DNA of 46,769 bases. It comes from Stentor roeselii (lineage: Eukaryota; Ciliophora; Heterotrichea; Heterotrichida; Stentoridae). A model generated the notes under the pieces. That model saw nothing but the letters and a program-made list of their open reading frames with translations. It was not told where the DNA came from and did no database searches. This document shows positions 1 through 26,368 of the stretch, in pieces. A program made the position numbers and the translations under genes. How positions within the stretch are numbered: position 1 is the stretch's first letter; the number at the start of each line of letters is the position of its first letter. Where the stretch lies: positions 1 to 46,769 of the forward strand of contig RSEH01000324.1 in NCBI GenBank assembly GCA_006503475.1, written 5' to 3'.

Positions 1-710
1 CTATTTTTTATACTATAAATTACTTTAATTTGATTGCAACTTATTTTTTTTCATTAAGTTTTCGAATATATTGATTTTACTGGTTATCATTATCGTTAAA
101 TCTTATTAAGAAATATAAATTTAACTAGTACTGTTCAATCTTAAAAAAAAATTTTTTCGTTATCTCCATTTCTTTCCCTTAATCACTTTCATACAAAAAA
201 GCATAATCTATCTCAACCCTATAATGTAATGAAGACTAAATTGAAATTTCTAAATCTTTATCTGATGATTTTTTATAAATCATGAGTTTAAAATTAATAA
301 TCTTAAGTGTCCAGTTTAAAAATCATTTAGAATAATTTAGCAGGATAGACCAAATCTTATATTAACTAATTGGTCACAAGTGAAAGATAAATTGATAGAT
401 TACGCCTGGATTATGAATTGATACGATTTACTCTTAAAGATATTATTTTTATTGTTAAATTTTATAAAAAGTTTCATAAGTACTTTATACTTTTAGGTAT
501 ATTATTTATGTTTATAATTTTAGATATGTTACTTATGTGAATAATATTAGATTATTACTTATGTTAATTAGAAGCTTGGAATATTGCTCCTTGCACCGAA
601 TGATTACATCTTTATCTTTTTTAATACTACGTTTTATAATATTTCCTTGAGTTTCAAAGCTTTTATGAATTCTGAGCACTTCAAGAATTCCTCAAAATTA
701 GCATAATTAG
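1..710. other. AT-rich non-coding flank
   Basis: No open frame of useful length, RNA gene or repeat array was found. The sequence is extremely A/T rich with short homopolymer runs. It leads into the tandem duplication that begins near 711. It resembles the other long gaps of the window, not the short spacers between the dense genes. Confidence 0.6.
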
Positions 711-1402
711 GAAAATTGTCATATTTCTGATCGTGATAACAAATATCACTTCAATAACCCTTCAGAAATAGATTATCTTAAAAATTTAATATATCTGATC
801 AGGGTAGCAATTGATTACTTTACAATACTTAATAAATTATAAAGTACAAGATATTCTAAGATTTTGTATTAGAAAAGATAATGCATGATTTTATTCTATA
901 AAATAAATATATAAAACAAGTGTCTACTTTTCAAGTTATGAAAATTGTAAATATGGTCAAAATGATTATAAATACCTTTCGAAAATTTCAAGAGATTTCA
1001 ATATCACTTTTCGTCTTATTTAGAAAATTTGGGTACCCTTTCACTTTGAAAGAGAGAAAATTTTCATATTTCTGATCCTGATAACAAATATCACTTCAAT
1101 AATCCTTCATAAATAGATTATTTGGAAAATTTTAATATTTCTGATCGGGGTAACAATTGATTATTTTACCTAACTTAATATATTATAAAGTACAAGATAT
1201 TTAAGCTTTTGATTAAGAAAAGATAATACATAATTATATTCTATTAGTATATATATTTAAACAAGTGTCTACATTTCAAATTACTAAAATTTTAAATATG
1301 GTCCTAAATGATTATAAATGTCTTTCGAAGAAAATTTCAAAAGATCTCAATATCACTTTTTGTCTTACTTAGAAAATTTGGGTAACCCTTTTACCTTAGA
1401 AG
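711..1402. repeat. 346-bp tandem direct duplication
   Basis: Two adjacent copies, about 711-1056 and 1057-1402, align along their full length by eye with roughly 15% mismatches and a few small indels. The period is fixed by the start codon of the downstream GTPase gene at 1318, which corresponds to ATA at 972. Each copy holds the presumed promoter, the leader and about the first 25 codons. The unit itself contains a weaker internal repeat of the ATATTTCTGATC type. Only the second copy is attached to a full gene, so this is a duplication of the gene head, left over from a local tandem event or a deleted paralogue. Confidence 0.85.
972..1049 (+). pseudogene. Truncated copy of GTPase gene 5' end
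   Basis: The first copy of the tandem duplication still reads in the gene frame: start mutated from ATG to ATA, then PFENFKRFQYHF and SSYLENLG, against SFEENFKRSQYHF and LSYLENLG in the intact gene. One Glu codon is missing. After the LG the frame shifts and stops at TGA 1047-1049. The reading frame is kept over about 20 codons although the start is lost, which suggests it was once a functional 5' end. It cannot encode a product now. Confidence 0.7.
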
Positions 1403-3903
1403 AGATAAAATCTACACTGAAAAATATAAATCAAAATGATGTAGTGACTGGATTCAAATCTAAATTTGAGACTGTAATTATTTCTAAAGAACTAAATAAA
1501 ATATTGGAAGAATTTTCAGATTCATCACAGAAGTATTTTGAATCATCTCAAAATAAAGAAGAAGCACTTGATATAATCATTGAAGAATTAAAACATATAG
1601 GGAACAAAATTTTCAATTCAATAGAACTTTGGGAAGATTTGATCACTTTTTTCAAACTTCCAGGCATTAAACAGCTTAAAAATGATGATCTTAATACAAT
1701 TATCATGATTATCAAAAAAGAAGAGGTAGATGAGCTAAGAGACACCTTGAAACAAGTAATACCAAAAAAAGAAATATCAAAAATTGATCAAGAACTTGAA
1801 TCAAGTGAATCTGATTTGGATTCATTAGCAGCCGATATAATAAATAAAATGCCTAAGTCTGATGAAAATTTTAATGAATATTTTAAAAAGTCAACAGACT
1901 ATTTCATCAATAAAATAATTACATATGATCTTAATGAGAATGAATCATATAATGGACTGATAATTAAATGCGAAAAAGAATCAAATACGTTAATATTTCA
2001 TACCAATAATCAATTTAGAATTAGTATAAACAAAACACAGTTTGAAGTTAAGTTAACGAGATTAGTCAAAAGAAATTTTTTATCTTCATTGCAAGAGTTA
2101 AAAATTAATGAAGAATTCAAAATTGAATTCTCTCAACCAAATATGCCTGATTTTAATAAGATTTTTATGAGTGGTAATTATAAGGTCATTTCTAAACATC
2201 AAAAGGAAAATTTTAAATTCGAATTCTGGACAACTCCTGGTAAAATAAACATAATTTCACTGAAATTTAGAGATAAAACATACAAAATAAGTTTTCATGA
2301 AAATCCTGATGTTAAAATTGCTAAAGTTGTATTAATTGTTCGTAATAAAAATATTAAACACAAAATAGAAAAAGAAATTTTAAATAAACGTTTTTTTATA
2401 TTAAAATTTTTGGATTTTAAAAAATCATTTGATGATGCAAAGGAATTGGAAAAGTTTCTAAAAATAAACGAAAGTTTTGATGAACGTGGTATAAGTTTTG
2501 TTCATGCAAAACTAATACAAGAAAAAATTGATCAGATAAGAAACGATCTGATCACCGAAGAAAATAAAATAGTACTAGATCTGTTTACTAATAATCTAAT
2601 ATCAAATAGACTAGAGTCTATAGATCTTGCTCTTTTTAAACAAAACAAGAAAATATATGACAATATAATTGAGATTTGTGAAGAATCAAAGACATACTTA
2701 GCTAAAGTAATAAACCCAATTGATTTACTTAAAAATTTAGTTATTAATTGTAACTATGCTGTAGTTGTTACAAAAGAACAATCTATAGAAATTGGGAAAA
2801 CTATGGATCTTCTCAAAGATGCCTATGTGCATCTTGATAAATTAGAAAATAAAAAGTTTATCATGTTCATAGGAAATACAGGCTCAGGAAAAAGTGCAGC
2901 TGTTTCTTATCTTCTTGGAGCTAAACTAAATTCTTATATCAATAAAATAGGAGAAAAAGTATTTGAAATAAATGAAAATAATGATACTCAGATAGAGTAT
3001 CCTCGTATTGGCCAATCTTTAGGCGAATCAGAAACAGTATACACTCAAGGATATCCTATAAGAGGTTTTGAAGATTTTTATTTTGTAGACTGTCCTGGAT
3101 TTAATGATACCAGAGGTTGCCACTATGAACTGTGCACTAATATCAGCATTGATCAAGCAATAAAAAGATCAGATTCAATTCATGCATTAGTGCTTGTTAT
3201 ACCAATTCAGATTTTTCTCATAGATCGTGGAAATCTTGTTTATGATTTAGCAATAAGTTTAAGAGAGAGATTTTCAAACTTATTTACAGAAGATCCATCA
3301 TCTAATAGCTCTTTTTTTATTATAATTACAAAAGCAAATCAAGTAAATTTTCAGGTTGTAAAAAGCATAAAGGATGGCAGTAGGTTTGATGAACTTTATA
3401 ATGAATGCCAAAGAAAGATTAATAATATAAAAAACCAGGAAAATCCTGATCATTTAACGATAGAATCTATCAATAAAAGATTGATGATTTGGAAAACATT
3501 CAGAAAACTTCATTCTATCAAGCATATCGATGTAATAGATCTTCTCTATAAAAGAGGGCCACAAGATTATTTGAAAAAGTACATACAGTGTAGTAAAACT
3601 TTAGATAAAAAATATTATATGCCATTGATGAATGATCCAGATATGAACCTTAAATTTGGAAAGCTTATAGAAATGTCAGTTCATACATGGAGAAGACTAT
3701 TGATTGAAGAATATTCGAAAGTAATTCCGACAAAACTAATTGAAAAAAAAATATTTTTAGAAGAAATTCAAAGTATAATATCAAAAAAGGAAAATGAAAA
3801 AATTGAAAGATATGAAAAAATTAAAAGGTTAGAGCAAGCAATTCACACTTTAAATAACACAATGTATAATTTAGGGACCGCTCTAGAAAATCCGGATAAT
3901 TAA
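1318..3903 (+). CDS. Large P-loop GTPase (G-domain protein)
   Basis: 861 residues. The first 500 or so are a helical and mixed region I do not recognise. A G domain follows: P-loop GNTGSGKS at 519-526, G3 DCPGFND starting at 591, and TKAN at 671-674 in the place of the usual (N/T)KxD. The PGFNDTRG signature resembles AIG1/GIMAP and the translation-factor-like GTPases that are expanded in ciliates and some fungi. The C-terminus (about 800-861) is Lys/Glu-rich and probably coiled coil. ATG 1318 follows a duplicated leader; no in-frame upstream ATG was seen. The stop TAA overlaps the ATG of the next frame by one base, so the two are probably one gene. Codons are strongly A/T-ending compared with the dense genes downstream. 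Function unknown; GTP binding is well supported. Confidence 0.85.
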   Translation: MSFEENFKRSQYHFLSYLENLGNPFTLEEIKSTLKNINQNDVVTGFKSKFETVIISKELNKILEEFSDSSQKYFESSQNKEEALDIIIEELKHIGNKIFNSIELWEDLITFFKLPGIKQLKNDDLNTIIMIIKKEEVDELRDTLKQVIPKKEISKIDQELESSESDLDSLAADIINKMPKSDENFNEYFKKSTDYFINKIITYDLNENESYNGLIIKCEKESNTLIFHTNNQFRISINKTQFEVKLTRLVKRNFLSSLQELKINEEFKIEFSQPNMPDFNKIFMSGNYKVISKHQKENFKFEFWTTPGKINIISLKFRDKTYKISFHENPDVKIAKVVLIVRNKNIKHKIEKEILNKRFFILKFLDFKKSFDDAKELEKFLKINESFDERGISFVHAKLIQEKIDQIRNDLITEENKIVLDLFTNNLISNRLESIDLALFKQNKKIYDNIIEICEESKTYLAKVINPIDLLKNLVINCNYAVVVTKEQSIEIGKTMDLLKDAYVHLDKLENKKFIMFIGNTGSGKSAAVSYLLGAKLNSYINKIGEKVFEINENNDTQIEYPRIGQSLGESETVYTQGYPIRGFEDFYFVDCPGFNDTRGCHYELCTNISIDQAIKRSDSIHALVLVIPIQIFLIDRGNLVYDLAISLRERFSNLFTEDPSSNSSFFIIITKANQVNFQVVKSIKDGSRFDELYNECQRKINNIKNQENPDHLTIESINKRLMIWKTFRKLHSIKHIDVIDLLYKRGPQDYLKKYIQCSKTLDKKYYMPLMNDPDMNLKFGKLIEMSVHTWRRLLIEEYSKVIPTKLIEKKIFLEEIQSIISKKENEKIERYEKIKRLEQAIHTLNNTMYNLGTALENPDN

Positions 3904-5144
3904 TGGATGAGCAAAAAAGGATATTGGTCAATGAGCAGATTTCTAATGTAGAAAATAGTGAGTTAGTTTCTTTAATCTATGAAATTGAACTTATTGAGAC
4001 AAATATAAATCATAATCAAATAAAATATAATGATTACCAAAAAAAATTAGAGATTTTGCAGGGAAATTCGAAGTTATTAAGTGATTTTGCCGAATGTTTA
4101 AAGAATGAAATAGAAAACCTAAAAATTGGTGATACTTATGAAATACTTGCTGAAAATAATCCTGATCCTGATGATGAAGTAACTGTTCAGATTATCAAGG
4201 AAGGAGTATCATTCGAGAGAGTATTTCAAGAATTTAGAAATTTTACCAAAGATGAAATTAAATCGGTACAAAAAAAAAAATATAGAGATTTGACAGGTAA
4301 GCTTCTTGAATATATAACAATTGAAAGAAAGTATTCCCTTGTTCCGAAAGATAAAAGATTGAGAGATGCATTTAAAAATAATCGCAAATTAGATGTAGAA
4401 GGTTTTCAAGCAATACTCGAAACAGAAAATTATGAACCAGACCCTGAAATGATCACAAGTCATGAGGGAAAAAAAATAAGATATTCTTTATATGGAAATT
4501 ATGATTCAAGGCCACTTCCTAGATATAAAATTACTTATAAAATTCCTAACTCATCATTTAATGAAGCAGAGATAATTAATAAAACACATGAAATTTACCA
4601 ACTCAAAGAAGAAATTTACGAAATACAAAAGAAGATAAATTGGAAAAAGGGTGTGATAGAAAGTATTGAAAATAATTTAGCTCAATTAGACAAGGAAAAA
4701 TCAGATAAAGAAAAGAAAAAACAACAATTATTAAATGAAAAAAAACATAATGATACTATTATTATGCAGAAGATCATAAAAAATCAAATTAATGATTTTC
4801 ATGAGAAAATTTTAAGACATAAGGAAGAGATAAGAGATTTGACAGAAAGTAAAGATATTGATAAATCTATAGAAATCGAAAATTCAAAACTTCAGGAAGT
4901 TCAAAAATCTATAAATGAATTGAATAATAAATACAAACAAATATCCCTTATATTTATTACTCAATCAGATACAGCGAAAATGCTACAAAGGTTTTCATTA
5001 TTGATATTTAGAGATAATAAAAAAGATATAAAATCTCAAAAAGATAATTCAGTTAATTTGGAATGCAAACTATTTGTTGAAGCATATGATGAAAATATTG
5101 AAAATATATTGAATCTAAGTAAGAGAAATTTAAACTTAATTTAA
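3903..5144 (+). CDS. Coiled-coil protein, probable C-terminal half of the GTPase
   Basis: 413 residues. Long heptad-like Lys/Glu/Ile-rich segments lie at about 1-75 and 225-350, with a mixed globular part at about 85-220. Its ATG overlaps the stop of the GTPase frame (TAATG), and the helical character runs from the end of one frame into the start of the other. In related large G-domain proteins a long coiled coil follows the GTPase, so I think this is the same protein separated by a one-base shift (one extra T near 3900 would join them). No GT-AG intron of 14-16 nt spans the junction. If translated separately it would need reinitiation. No catalytic motif seen. Confidence 0.65.
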   Translation: MDEQKRILVNEQISNVENSELVSLIYEIELIETNINHNQIKYNDYQKKLEILQGNSKLLSDFAECLKNEIENLKIGDTYEILAENNPDPDDEVTVQIIKEGVSFERVFQEFRNFTKDEIKSVQKKKYRDLTGKLLEYITIERKYSLVPKDKRLRDAFKNNRKLDVEGFQAILETENYEPDPEMITSHEGKKIRYSLYGNYDSRPLPRYKITYKIPNSSFNEAEIINKTHEIYQLKEEIYEIQKKINWKKGVIESIENNLAQLDKEKSDKEKKKQQLLNEKKHNDTIIMQKIIKNQINDFHEKILRHKEEIRDLTESKDIDKSIEIENSKLQEVQKSINELNNKYKQISLIFITQSDTAKMLQRFSLLIFRDNKKDIKSQKDNSVNLECKLFVEAYDENIENILNLSKRNLNLI

Positions 5145-8100
5145 TATAACTCTTTAATCGAATTTTTACATTAATTAATATATAATCATTTATTGGTCAT
5201 TGTCACAAACTGAATTCAATATCATAAATAATTCTACAGGACTTAGCATTTTCTAATTTTTTGTAATTAAAACCAAGACCTCATAATTGCTAAGTAAATC
5301 AATGATATAGTTTAGTCTATATATAGAAATTTAATATATTATTATAGTATAGGTTGAATTTAAAATATTTACTAAAGTCTATGATTTCCACTTCAATAAA
5401 GTGTAAGGTAACTATAAAAATTTATCCATTTATAATCAAGAAATATCCTAAAATATTGAAGTCGACCTAATATCTAATTACTATTATTTCCAAATAATTT
5501 CTTAAGAGATTAAATTTATTTTATTATATGATTAATAAAAAGATAGATAATTATATTCTAGAAGCTCAATCCAAACATAGATCTATCCTAAATTCTGTAC
5601 AACCTTTATTTTAAATTTATAGAATTATAATTGAATTTTTTTAACTTTGATAACTTAGAATATTATAGAAAATAACTATTTAAGATAATGTTGTTTGATC
5701 AAGTTCAAAGGAAGTTGAAAATACTCTATTTCTCAATACGCAATAGTCTTTACATTTTATGAATAAAAGTGCTTTAATACGTATATTCAATTAGGTATTC
5801 ATAAAAGAAATCGAAAAATAAATAGTTTGATAAGCAAAAAGCAAAGGTTAATTTATGTAGAATTTAATTTCTGAATAAAAATTTTATTTCAAATTCAATC
5901 TTTAGATTCATAAAAAATTGTTGAAGAGTTGATAAAGAACTTATTTTCCCAAAATGGTTGCATCATCTTCAAAAGTTGATGAGATAGTCTGATTATGATT
6001 AGTAGTTAAACTGAATAGACAAAGAATTTATTATCTTTGGGATAGAGAAGACAATGATTAAGTTTCCAGTATATCTATAGTATATGCAATTAATTACATA
6101 ATTTATTATTAATTTAAATTGCAATCCAAATCTACTATAAATATAATATCTTTATTATAATCATTTTTAGTTATAGAATCATTTGAATCTTCAAGATTTG
6201 ACTACTTCTTGATTTAAACTCCTATATCTTCTTTATTTTCAGATTTTTTAATTCGATAAAATTCAATTCATAAGAATTATAAAAGAAAATTTTTTATTTG
6301 GCTTAGTAATTAATGGAACTGACATAATCTCTGACCATAGCTGCAATTTGTTGATTAAATGAATGAAGATACTTTTGATTGAAAGATATCAAAATTTTTT
6401 TAGTTTTTTCGAATCTTCTATTTTAATTTAAAGAATTGATATCAAAGTAAATAGTTATGATTCGATTTATTTTTATAGGTAATTTTTCTAATGCAATTGA
6501 TGAGAATACCAATAATATATTTTTTCTGTGGCACTAAAATGCTTGAAATTTTGATAAACTTTATAAACTTGAATGGTAGAAGAAATAAAATAATTAAGTT
6601 TGTTTATGATTTAGGAAATTCTACTTGGATAAAACAGACTGTTGTTAAGATAATTTTACTTAAATATTTGTTCGAATTCCAATCAAAATCAACGCTTTCT
6701 TATTTTTAAAGCTCTTGAAAAATTCAGTTTGCTATCACAGCTAATATTAAGTCTTCGCAAAGATTTTTAATTGTAGTGCAGATTTATTGATTCTGACCAA
6801 GTGTTGTATGGTTGTTGAATCATTAATGATTTAGTTGGCTCTTCCTAACTACAAATTTCGTCAAAGTAATCTTATGAGTCTCATTGAGTTGTTGAAAATA
6901 TTTATAAACATTTTAAACTAAACATCTCGGACATCTCGAAATATCTTGATCAATTTTTTTATTTTGAAGTTAATTTGAATTCTTATTACTTGTATAAACT
7001 TCTCTGCTGCAACCCGATAATATTTAATTTGAAATATAACCGCATGCAATTATTGTCTAGCACCTGCTATATTTAAACGGTTAAACTAGGTAACTAGATC
7101 TAGAAAACATGAATTTGAATAATTTAAAGTTTTTACGATTTTAGTTCAGATGATTGTTGTACAATAAAATTTTGAAAGTGAATAAAGAAAAAAGTAGTTA
7201 CTCAGAAATAAATATTTCTCAATAAAAATGATATAAATTTTGATTATTTCTTAATAATTAAAAGTAGCTGATGATGCAAATTTTAGATATTTTTAAACCA
7301 AATAATAGACCAATTATGTTATGCAGTGGAATTTTTACAAATCTTCAATAATAAACTGAAACTTAAAAAGGTCTAAAAATATCGCATTAAGACTCAAATC
7401 CCTTCAAATAAACCATATCAATCATTTCATTATTATCTGAAAATTTTCAATAAAAAACAGAAACAATAATTAATTCGAATATATAAAAAACTCATTGGGA
7501 TTTCAAATTATCTTGCTGGGAGAACTACAATCTTATGGCTCATATGAAATTATAAGCTTTAATAGAGTAAAATTATCGCATATTATCTCTTCTCATTAAA
7601 ATTCCAAGAGAACATAGAGATACTTTATTTTCAACTATCTGTCCATAGTTGATTTAATAAATTCAACTTAACTTTATTAAACAAACTAAAGGTTAATATA
7701 GAAAAAATTAGAAATAGAATTGTTTTATAAGACAAGCTTTATCGTCTATCGAACAAAAGATTTAAATAAAATATTTGAAATTAATAATAAGTGTTTCATC
7801 CTTGATTTAATTATTTTAAGTAATGAAATTTTTTTGTAAATTAAACATGATTCTCATATTATTTGATCAAAGCACCTTCTCGAAATTTACTTAGATAATC
7901 TCAATTCTAACACTATTTTAGGATATATTGAATTCATCCAATTTAAAGATTATTCATTTTCGAATAAAACTTAAAAAATACTCTAAAATGCAGAGAAAGC
8001 CCTCACTATTGAAACCTAATAAAAGGTTGAGAGATTAAGCGATACTTAAAACAGTTAAATTAAAATTTATTAAGACAACTAATTGATTTATCAATCATTC

Positions 8101-12359: not shown

Positions 12360-12663
12360 TAGAAATTTTTAAATGTTTTTTTGGGGATGATGGGAAAGGT
12401 TGGAAGTGGCTTGAAGGTTTGGATTTAGTGATTTTTGGAAGGATTAGAATTTTTTTAGATGTTTTTATGGGAATAAATGGGAAAGGTTGGAAGTGGCTTG
12501 AAGGTTTAAAGGGTTAGAATTTTTTAGATGTTTTAATGGGAATAAATGGGAAAGGTTGGAAGTTGCTTGGAGGTTTGAATTTAGTGATTTTCGAAAGGGT
12601 TAGAATTTTTTAGATGTTTTAATGGTGATAAATGGGAAAAGCTGGGATTGGCTTTAAGCTTTC
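12360..12663 (+). repeat. Tandem array of about 86 bp including the MFS start codon
   Basis: Four units begin with TTAGAATTTTT-like sequence at 12360, 12444, 12514 and 12600. Equivalent ATGs lie at 12390, 12477, 12546 and 12632, spaced 87, 69 and 86 bp; the second unit lacks about 18 bp. Each ATG opens a frame starting MGK. The first three close after 10-12 residues (MGKVGSGLKVWI, MGKVGSGLKV, MGKVGSCLEV). The last is the true start of the transporter (MGKAGIGFKL). The strand is strongly G/T rich. If transcribed, the three upstream copies would act as short upstream ORFs. Confidence 0.85.
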
Positions 12664-13983
12664 GATCATGGCTGTGATGATGTGTGATACAATGTCTGTT
12701 TATGTGATTATGCCTATTCTTCCTTTTATGGTTAGTTTTTATTTGGGGAAGGATGAAAAATTAGTGAATTCTGAAAGAATTTCTGAGTTTTCAGGATATC
12801 TTGAAGCGAGTTATAGATTAGCTCAAATACTTGGAATTTTATTTTGGTATTTGTAAATAGGTCGAAGTTGTCAACGAGGTACAGTTGTAAGTACTTGATT
12901 ATGATTGGGTTTATTGGCCTTTCGTTGAGTTCTTTAGGGATTTCTTTGAGTGATTCTTATAATTTCACATTGTTCTGCAGGGCCTTCATCGGATTTTTCT
13001 GCTTTAACTCTCCTTTGTTAAAAGGACTGATTCGAGAGACCTGCAGTGATTCAGAGTTCTTTGAGACCTATTCTTATTTCACGTTAGGAGTTTCTATTTC
13101 AAATACCCTAGGACCTCTCATTGCGATTACTTCAAATCTGAGCACAAACCTTTCTTTTGTAAATGAAAATCCTTACTTTTTACCTTTTTTTATCATGTGA
13201 TAATCATTTAGGTCTGCTTTAGGACTCTTGACTTTTGTTATGGTTTACATTTTTCTTCCAGTAGTTCCCGTCAAAAACATTCCAAATGACCAAAAAAGTG
13301 GAATTTTGACGAAAAAAGAATTTTTGGTTGTTGTTTTTCTTTATATTTCTTTTGGATTCATTCATAATGGATCGAAATTCTTGTTTTCTGTCATTTGTAG
13401 CACTAGTGAACAGGTAGGAGGACTGGGGATTCAATCTGAGCAACAAGCATCTATTATTCAAACTATTGCTGGGGTTTTTGTGGTGATTATTCCTTGTTTG
13501 TTGCAGGATAATCTGGTGAAGAAACTGGGATTACTCAATGCTTTTTATTTACTTCTTGCGGTTTATATACCGGTTTCTACTTTGTATCAGTTTTTTTTTC
13601 AGTTTGAACCTGCTATTAAGATTGCTGCTGTTACAGTTGTTTATGGGCTGATACTTTCGGTTTCTTTGATGATTTTCTCGTATTTCTCTTACTGCATCTC
13701 AAATTCAGTTTTTAGTGATCAATCGACAGTAGCTCACGGTTACTCAAACGCAGCCGTAGGTTTCACCCGATTTCTCTCAAACGCATTTTACGGGCTATTC
13801 TTCTCCTGGACAATAAGCACAGGCAATTTAAACCACGGTCTAAACGCTCACACATCTCTCTACCTAACTCTTCTCCTTCTTCTCCTTCTCTTCCTCTTCT
13901 CATTCAAGCTACTAACAAAATCCTACGAGTCCAAAAAATCGCGTCCATCAGAAATAAATCTTCCATTATTAAAACCTAGTTAA
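12632..13983 (+). CDS. Major facilitator superfamily transporter, two tiny introns
   Basis: Joined exons 12632-12846, 12861-13196 and 13212-13983 give about 440 residues with around twelve hydrophobic segments. After helix 2 the joined sequence reads FWSKLSTRYSCKYLIMIG, matching the MFS loop 2-3 signature WGxLSDRxGRK, with S-K-L-S-T-R in register only if exactly 14 nt are removed. Exon 3 joins as FFIMSALGLLTF. The start is the last of four repeated MGK starts. A hydrophilic linker near VVPVKNIPNDQKSG is the likely central cytoplasmic loop. The stop TAA is one base from the stop of the convergent NVL gene. Substrate cannot be told; single-gene MFS families of this type include drug and small-solute carriers. 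Confidence 0.85.
12847..12860 (+). other. 14-nt intron (GTATTTGTAAATAG)
   Basis: GT...TAG segment in the MFS gene. It contains an in-frame TAA at 12854-12856, and its removal changes frame so that the conserved loop 2-3 motif is restored. Its length of 2 modulo 3 is required by the flanking frames. The nearest alternative AG ends do not keep the motif. Confidence 0.7.
13197..13211 (+). other. 15-nt intron (GTGATAATCATTTAG)
   Basis: GT...TAG segment in the MFS gene. Retaining it gives TGA and TAA stops in frame; removing 15 nt keeps the frame and joins two hydrophobic stretches. This length is the typical heterotrich intron size. Confidence 0.85.
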
Positions 13984-25472: not shown

Positions 25473-26368
25473 TTATAGTCGAGGAGTCAGGGCAAAGCCC
25501 AGGCCAGTCAGTCCAACAATAATCCCTGAATGATAAGCGTAAAAAAGAAGTGAAAATTGAGGATTTTCACAGTGTAAAAGTGCCAACTCGTATAACTTTC
25601 CAAAGAAACAATGAGGAAAATCAAAAGAAATTGAAATCCAGTCATTTCGCTTACATGTTCTGAGTTTTTCAGGTAGTCCCAGAACCATTTTCCTAACGAA
25701 GCCGAAAGTGATTCCCCATAGTCGCCTGTCAAGTCCCAAGTCAATCGCGATTACCTTTCCTGAGAAGTGAAGGGGGAAGACATTGATAACAAAATTGACA
25801 CTTGTCTTGGCCCTACTTAAAAATACTTCAACAGTCCATGAGTGAAGAGATGAAAGTCAGTCCAAAAGACCTGAGACACTTCTTTTGGGTTCAAAGTGAA
25901 GGACAAGTCATCGCCGAGGAACAAAAACACTGAATAGGACTTACTGTGAACTGATACAAACAACGTACGTCGACGGAAGTGCTTGTAAACGTTTTCTGAG
26001 GGTGTATGGCCCAGGTAATGAAAGTTACTGCTTCTTAGGTCTACTCCGATTTCTTCTAATGTTTCTCGAATTGCTGCTTGTTTTGATGACTCGCCTTTTT
26101 CTACTTTTCCACCTGGAAATGCGATTTGACCAGAATGAATGTCTTTTTTGTTCAAGGCACGCTTTATGAATAGAAGTTCTAACGAGTTGCTGTGAAGTTT
26201 GGAAAGATGGTAAAAAAAATCGTCCGGGGATGAAGAGGGTGAGGGTGGAAATCGATTTGAAGTGGGGGATAAACGGAATAGAGCTACTACGCTTGCACTT
26301 TTTTGAGAGGGGGATGGAATTTCTGATTGTTCGAGCTTCCTGGATAGATGAAATAGAGTTTCAGACAT
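25473..26368 (-). CDS. Nudix hydrolase (CoA diphosphatase-like), one 14-nt intron
   Basis: Exons 26368-25827 and 25812-25473 join to 293 residues. The Nudix box GGKVEKGESSKQAAIRETLEE lies at about 86-106 (GX5EX7REUXEEXGU from 87 to 109), preceded by LLFIKRALNKKDIHSGQIAFPGG, which is the CoA-pyrophosphatase (NUDT7/NUDT8) signature. Without splicing the protein stops at HGLLKYF after 183 residues; removing 14 nt continues as LLKAKTSVNFVINVFPLHF and then DLGLDRRLWGITFGFV, the usual C-terminal strand and helix of this family. Expected reaction: hydrolysis of CoA or a related nucleotide diphosphate. Two hydrophobic segments near the C-terminus are unusual. Confidence 0.8.
25813..25826 (-). other. 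14-nt intron (GTATTTTTAAGTAG)
   Basis: Read on the minus strand it begins GTA and ends TAG, holds the in-frame TAA that ends the unspliced frame, and its length of 2 modulo 3 is required to join the two Nudix frames. An 11-nt alternative (ending at the earlier AAG) would also keep frame but is less likely. Confidence 0.65.

Follow-up and report, generated by a model that had tools for sequence, protein, structure and literature searches.

A probable minority class of 14-nt introns beside the 15-nt introns of Stentor roeselii

The window analyzed here is a 46,769-nt stretch that makes up a whole contig of the Stentor roeselii assembly (RSEH01000324.1, C258 in our numbering), and two of its genes are each interrupted by a segment of 14 nt. 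The first is a Nudix gene on the minus strand (25473..26368). Its exon 1 (25827..26368, minus) is an open frame that starts from the ATG at 26368 and includes the Nudix box FPGGKVEKGESSKQAAIRETLEEIGV, and this upstream frame of 183 codons terminates within the segment GTATTTTTAAGTAG (25813..25826, minus), which lies in phase 2, has A at positions 9 and 10 and contains an in-frame stop. Exon 2 (25473..25812, minus) is an open frame that encodes the C-terminal part with LWGITFGF and ends in the stop codon. The original prediction had placed a frame-breaking 14-nt segment here and had claimed that its removal lengthens the protein from 183 to 293 residues; the position proved exact, with the stop inside, and recomputing the frame without the 14 nt gave a single frame of 293 codons with its end at 25473. 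The coding margin of the segment was 8.7 on the left and 2.1 on the right, and it passed the flank criterion (coding sequence required on either side of the junction in the spliced frame, under a phase-specific model trained on 247 kb) at 2.1. Three further copies of GTATTTTTAAGTAG in the genome (L001–L003) showed no intron behavior in the flank test.

The joined Nudix protein was compared with domain, family and structure collections. The Pfam NUDIX match (PF00293, E 8.6e-17) ends at residue 175, and the junction lies at residues 180/181. NCBIfam matches end at or before residue 172, apart from one weak match reaching 183 (E 0.0077), and PDB decapping-enzyme chains match up to 185, so that coverage past the junction in the PDB and NCBIfam searches was a few residues at most. 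The best solved-structure match was the CoA pyrophosphatase 1nqy, covering the Nudix-box part only, and the NF007980 CoA pyrophosphatase model scored 35.3 bits, under its cut-off of 134. A paralogue on contig C31 (61835-62509), with which exon 2 was aligned, crosses the junction: it is a single open frame, intronless at the site of the 14-nt segment, with 44% identity over query residues 36-252. In this alignment LFTHGLLK/AKTS... (slash at the junction) stands opposite LFTHYLQKHIKPK..., LWGIT further on stands opposite LWGAT, and RRLWGITFGFVRKM in the exon 2 product has HLWGATLRIMRNL at the equivalent place in the paralogue. The same paralogue is the sole match behind the LWG motif, which may correspond to the C-terminal part of the CoA diphosphatase-like Nudix family. 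It sets the frame but does not decide the exact intron length: with 13, 3 and 2 additional residues in this region, it gives close alignment scores (325 with 14 nt removed, 327 with 11, 323 with 17 and 321 with 20). For this gene, the length of 14 nt is suggested by the GTA...TAG borders together with the genome-wide class described below.

The second gene, on the plus strand, encodes an MFS transporter (12632..13983). It consists of exon 1 (12632..12846), a 14-nt intron GTATTTGTAAATAG in phase 2 (12847..12860), exon 2 (12861..13196), a 15-nt intron GTGATAATCATTTAG with A at position 10 and a coding margin of 6.3 (13197..13211), and exon 3 with the stop codon (13212..13983). The 15-nt intron begins with GTG, the usual start being GTA. 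At the 14-nt intron the coding margin was -1.6, which fails the flank criterion, whereas homology supports the junction: the joined protein matches Pfam MFS_1 over residues 13-372 (E 1.1e-22), and the domain spans the 14-nt junction. The intron interrupts the codon of a W that is common to four paralogues lacking an intron at this site (L150–L153), and the distance from this W to an SSLG/SSIG motif is 22 residues both in these paralogues and in the window protein with 14 nt removed, while removing 11 or 17 nt displaces the spacing by one residue. Because of this agreement the intron length can be set at 14 nt, and the earlier claim of two 14-nt cases in one window is confirmed, with paralogues fixing the length of this second one. 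Two further MFS paralogues on contig C71, L148 (GTAAGTTTTATGAAG) and L149 (GTAAGTTCTATGAAG), carry a 15-nt intron that agrees in codon and phase with the 14-nt intron of the window; the placement was computed for L149 and read from the sequence for L148.

Elsewhere in the window, positions 1-8000 have a GC content of 23-27%, compared with 31-42% in most of the remainder, apart from two 2-kb stretches at 26% and 28%. This low-GC part contains long frames at 1318-3903, with a weak GTPase match, and at 3900-5144, without a match, and may have been inserted from a different source. Contamination was considered for the contig as a whole and rejected, as its codon usage differs from that of five other contigs by a JSD of 0.0035-0.0127, and those contigs differ among themselves by 0.0018-0.0211.

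To place the two segments in their genomic background, we searched the whole assembly (44,391,514 bases in 522 contigs) and scanned a 247-kb sample, consisting of the window and 20 stretches of 10 kb, ab initio for segments that, once taken out, leave two coding frames joined. A first coding model, which gave nothing at its threshold, and a codon score, which separated frames too weakly, were replaced. Frames of at least 300 codons in the 247 kb (n = 73) end at TAA in 43 cases, TAG in 24 and TGA in 6, showing that all three standard stops are used. With GT-AG borders, the scan returned 13 segments of 15 nt at threshold 2, compared with 0 to 6 for eight control motifs, and no excess at 14 nt (6 at threshold 2 versus 3 to 8 in the control motifs). 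With the narrower GTA...TAG borders, the numbers at 13, 14, 15, 16 and 17 nt were 0, 3, 11, 1 and 1 in the 247 kb. For six other border pairs the ranges were 0-2 (14 nt) and 0-5 (15 nt); the control value of 5 and one of the values of 2 came from GTA...CAG and GTA...AAG, which are plausible introns themselves. The single 16-nt candidate was weak (margin 0.4). The three 14-nt results were the Nudix intron, L011, which is doubtful, and L016 (GTAAAGTTAAATAG), which was found by borders and coding frames alone and interrupts a gene judged by eye to be ankyrin- and SAM-like, with strong coding scores. An A at position 10 was present in 17 of 19 15-nt introns, a set made up of 18 15-nt scan candidates and the GTG intron of the window, with one GTT-starting candidate omitted. 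The standard intron here is one of 15 nt, resembling that of Stentor coeruleus, and a small 14-nt class appears to exist alongside it.

Subsequently, intron length was tested over the whole genome by searching single motifs at varied lengths and applying the flank criterion to about 600 bases around each site (3 kb for L001–L003). The motifs were derived from the two 14-nt introns of the window and impose A9, and A10 too. At 14 nt, the 44.4 Mb contain 28 matches of GTATTTNTAANTAG, two of them in the 46.8-kb window contig, and 9 of the 26 sites outside the window passed. At 15 nt, GTATTTNNTAANTAG occurs 62 times and 10 of 20 passed, while at 13 nt none of 20 sites of GTATTNTAANTAG passed (40 in the genome); both samples were the first 20 in list order. 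None of the 11 sites at 16 nt or the 18 sites at 17 nt passed, these being all occurrences of the GTATTT motif at those lengths. A 14-nt motif with a different 5' end, GTAAGNNTAANTAG, occurs 31 times, and 11 of 28 sites passed, with C253:47239, C284:3257 and C456:43 left out. Pooled outside the window, 20 of 54 sites passed at 14 nt versus 0 of 49 at 13, 16 and 17 nt (Fisher P 3.4e-7), and this motif-based version of the genome-wide count by intron length that had been suggested as a check supports a 14-nt class. Failures made up 34 of the 54 (17 of 26 in the GTATTT set and 17 of 28 in the GTAAG set), and some positives passed narrowly, such as L137 (margin 0.5) and L107 (margin 0.9). On C284 the 14-mer GTAAGATTAATTAG stands both at 3133-3146 and at 3257-3270, a spacing of 124 bases that may reflect a tandem repeat, and the first of these copies (L140) is not intron-like.

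In the whole genome the pattern GTAAG-N(k)-TAANTAG occurs 11, 31, 242 and 17 times at lengths of 13, 14, 15 and 16 nt; at 13, 15 and 16 nt these sites were counted only, without the flank test. Compared with reversed-pattern controls, raw counts gave no 14-nt excess (GTATTTNTAANTAG 28 versus 34; GTAAG 14-nt motif 31 versus 82), and since the control is larger for both motifs, the class is not apparent from this comparison. It is the counts against neighboring lengths, taken with the flank test, that point to a class of 14 nt. No 13-nt introns were seen (0 of 20 tested, with the 11 further GTAAG sites counted), and no 16-nt introns were detected (0 of 11 sites of the GTATTT motif; the 17 GTAAG sites were counted only). 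Across 23 14-nt introns, 11 are in phase 0, 3 in phase 1 and 9 in phase 2.

Homology searches were run for 12 of the 20 passing sites from the rest of the genome (L034, L038, L044, L107, L123, L125, L127 and L137 were left out), and 9 of these 12 had a match that crosses the junction. A DEAH helicase (L144, with GTAAGTTTAAATAG removed) aligns gap-free over RSVRLGEE/VGYSIRFED with PRP16 and DHX15 (PDB), an aldehyde dehydrogenase family (ALDH) gene (L031) aligns gap-free over YFQE/NKEE with a putative succinate-semialdehyde dehydrogenase (PDB), and a kinesin (L138) aligns gap-free over SSRSHS/IFR with kinesin-5 (PDB), a gap of two residues opening three positions further on. In six others Pfam domains cross the junction, namely TruD (L046), ankyrin (L129 and L145), MFS (L121), Mem_trans (L122) and kinesin (L147). 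The match of L043 lies only downstream of the junction, and the searches with L041 and L146 gave no match.

The two kinesins form a tandem on contig C239 (L138, 12153-12766; L147, 14226-14839) and exchange intron lengths. At one site the L138 gene has 15 nt (GTACTCTTCACATAG) and the L147 gene 14 nt (GTAAGTTTAAGTAG), and at the other site the L138 gene has 14 nt (GTAAGTTTAAGTAG) and the L147 gene 15 nt (GTAAGGATTAGGAAG); read from the sequences, the 14- and 15-nt partners match in codon and phase. Both 14-nt introns of this pair are identical in sequence, at different sites. Together with the MFS site, there are three homologous sites where paralogues differ, one carrying a 14-nt and the other a 15-nt intron, the two kinesin sites being reciprocal.

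We consider it very probable that the Nudix segment is a 14-nt spliceosomal GT-AG intron, and that it is one of a less common class beside the 15-nt standard of this genome. The observed 14-nt length could also result from an assembly error that dropped a single base from a 15-nt intron, such as a T in a T run, so that the intron measures 14 nt in the assembly only. In line with this, 17 of the 62 sites that fit the 15-nt pattern are GTATTTTTTAAGTAG, which has six T, and the Nudix intron would represent a version of it with five; in this one intron, taken singly, it is possible that five T were miscounted from six. As an account of the class, assembly error is improbable. Several 14-nt positives lack a long T run (GTAAGCGTAAATAG, GTAAGGGTAAATAG, GTAAGGATAAGTAG, GTAAGCATAAATAG). 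Rough estimates put 14-nt introns at ~5% of 15-nt ones by the GTAAG motif (if most of the 242 sites are introns) and at about a third by the GTATTT motif; errors that frequent in every 15 bases should disrupt exons throughout, yet the window has frames open for up to 1250 codons. The errors would have to hit introns often and spare exons, and no 13-nt introns were seen.

A retained internal eliminated sequence, that is, DNA normally excised in macronuclear development, is a still less likely source of these segments. Such DNA does interrupt ciliate genes, as described in the part of PMC9942856 that bears on it, and the Nudix segment has TA near both of its ends. However, a cut from TA to TA takes 10 (or 6) nt with one TA left behind, which gives a wrong or unchanged frame and leaves the frames unjoined; the borders are moreover GT/AG, and where a paralogue has 15 nt at an equivalent position, that segment resembles other 15-nt introns. 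Programmed ribosomal frameshifting or read-through, with the 14 nt retained in the mRNA, could join the two frames as well, as these overlap around the site, but it is the least credible of the alternatives, given that the breaks have common GTA...TAG borders and length and occur in all three phases, that helicase, kinesin and dehydrogenase relatives are gap-free at the junction without the 14 nt, and that paralogues carry a 15-nt intron at the same place.

The above analyses thus favor a 14-nt spliceosomal intron. The frames, borders, length class and homologous positions are read directly from the sequence, and from them we infer that the ordinary major spliceosome would excise these segments from RNA. 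The suggestion that the spliceosome here accepts 14-nt introns accordingly finds support in the length test, in homology across junctions and in the exchanges between 14 and 15 nt. The branch-point A would be kept 5 nt from the 3' end, at A10 in 15-nt and A9 in 14-nt introns; A9 is independent of the search motif solely in the window pair and L016, where A10 is present as well. The missing nucleotide would then be one of those separating the 5' splice site from the branch point, reducing the lariat loop from ~10 to 9 nt, and introns may switch between 15 and 14 nt over time at fixed gene positions. As 14 is not a multiple of three, a retained segment shifts or stops the frame, and unspliced RNA would carry a frameshift or a stop. 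We regard it as likely, with less assurance than for the intron itself, that this is a working 14-nt class in which the 5' splice site lies 1 nt closer to the branch point and the distance from branch to 3' end is kept, and which serves as the minor class here where Stentor coeruleus has one of 16 nt.

The minimum intron that a spliceosome can bind and cut is an open question, the reason being that the 5' splice site, the branch point and the 3' splice site are held simultaneously by several proteins and RNAs. The 14/15-nt paralogue pairs offer natural material for testing which distance can shrink. They also carry a warning for annotation, in that gene finders restricted to 15-16 nt would label such genes broken. 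No report of 14-nt introns was found in the literature searched, and a 14-nt class would be shorter than any intron class we found reported. The "14 nt" in the relevant passage of PMC10449743 is a distance from telomeres, and a 2025 paper, where it compares intron sizes, names 15-nt Stentor introns and an 18-nt intron as the only ones comparable to its 23-nt intron (PMC12316389).

Known ciliate introns provide the closest comparison. In Loxodes magnus, introns have a mode of 17 bp with a negligible number below 16 bp according to the intron section of PMC11441545; they are very short as those described here are, but longer. The same section describes heterotrichs as the sister group of karyorelicts, with ~95% of introns of 15 bp and the remainder of 16 bp. 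Introns of Blepharisma stoltei are given as predominantly 15 and 16 bp, a wording that allows other lengths, and share the size range of those in the window; that species reads UGA as Trp, whereas TGA ends 6 of 73 long frames here (PMC9942806, in its passages on introns and code). For Stentor coeruleus, the intron passage of PMC9505925 gives 15 nt for 92.81% and 16 nt for 7.19% of introns. Features in common are GT-AG borders, A+T-rich sequence and, in 17 of 19 of the 15-nt introns here, an A placed 5 nt upstream of the 3' end, and standard stops are used here; together, the stop codons and the 15-nt introns with A10 would suggest a heterotrich close to Stentor. The differences are a 14-nt class in S. 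roeselii that this passage does not list and a 16-nt class that was undetected in our searches. The two 14-nt introns of the window share the GT...AG borders, mostly GTA...TAG, of the heterotrich tiny introns and, at the MFS and the two kinesin sites, 14-nt introns share the positions of their relatives' introns, but 14 nt falls outside the 15-16 nt of that type. As their length is 14 nt instead of 15 or 16, we therefore regard them as a variant of the heterotrich type of tiny intron, not a plain member.
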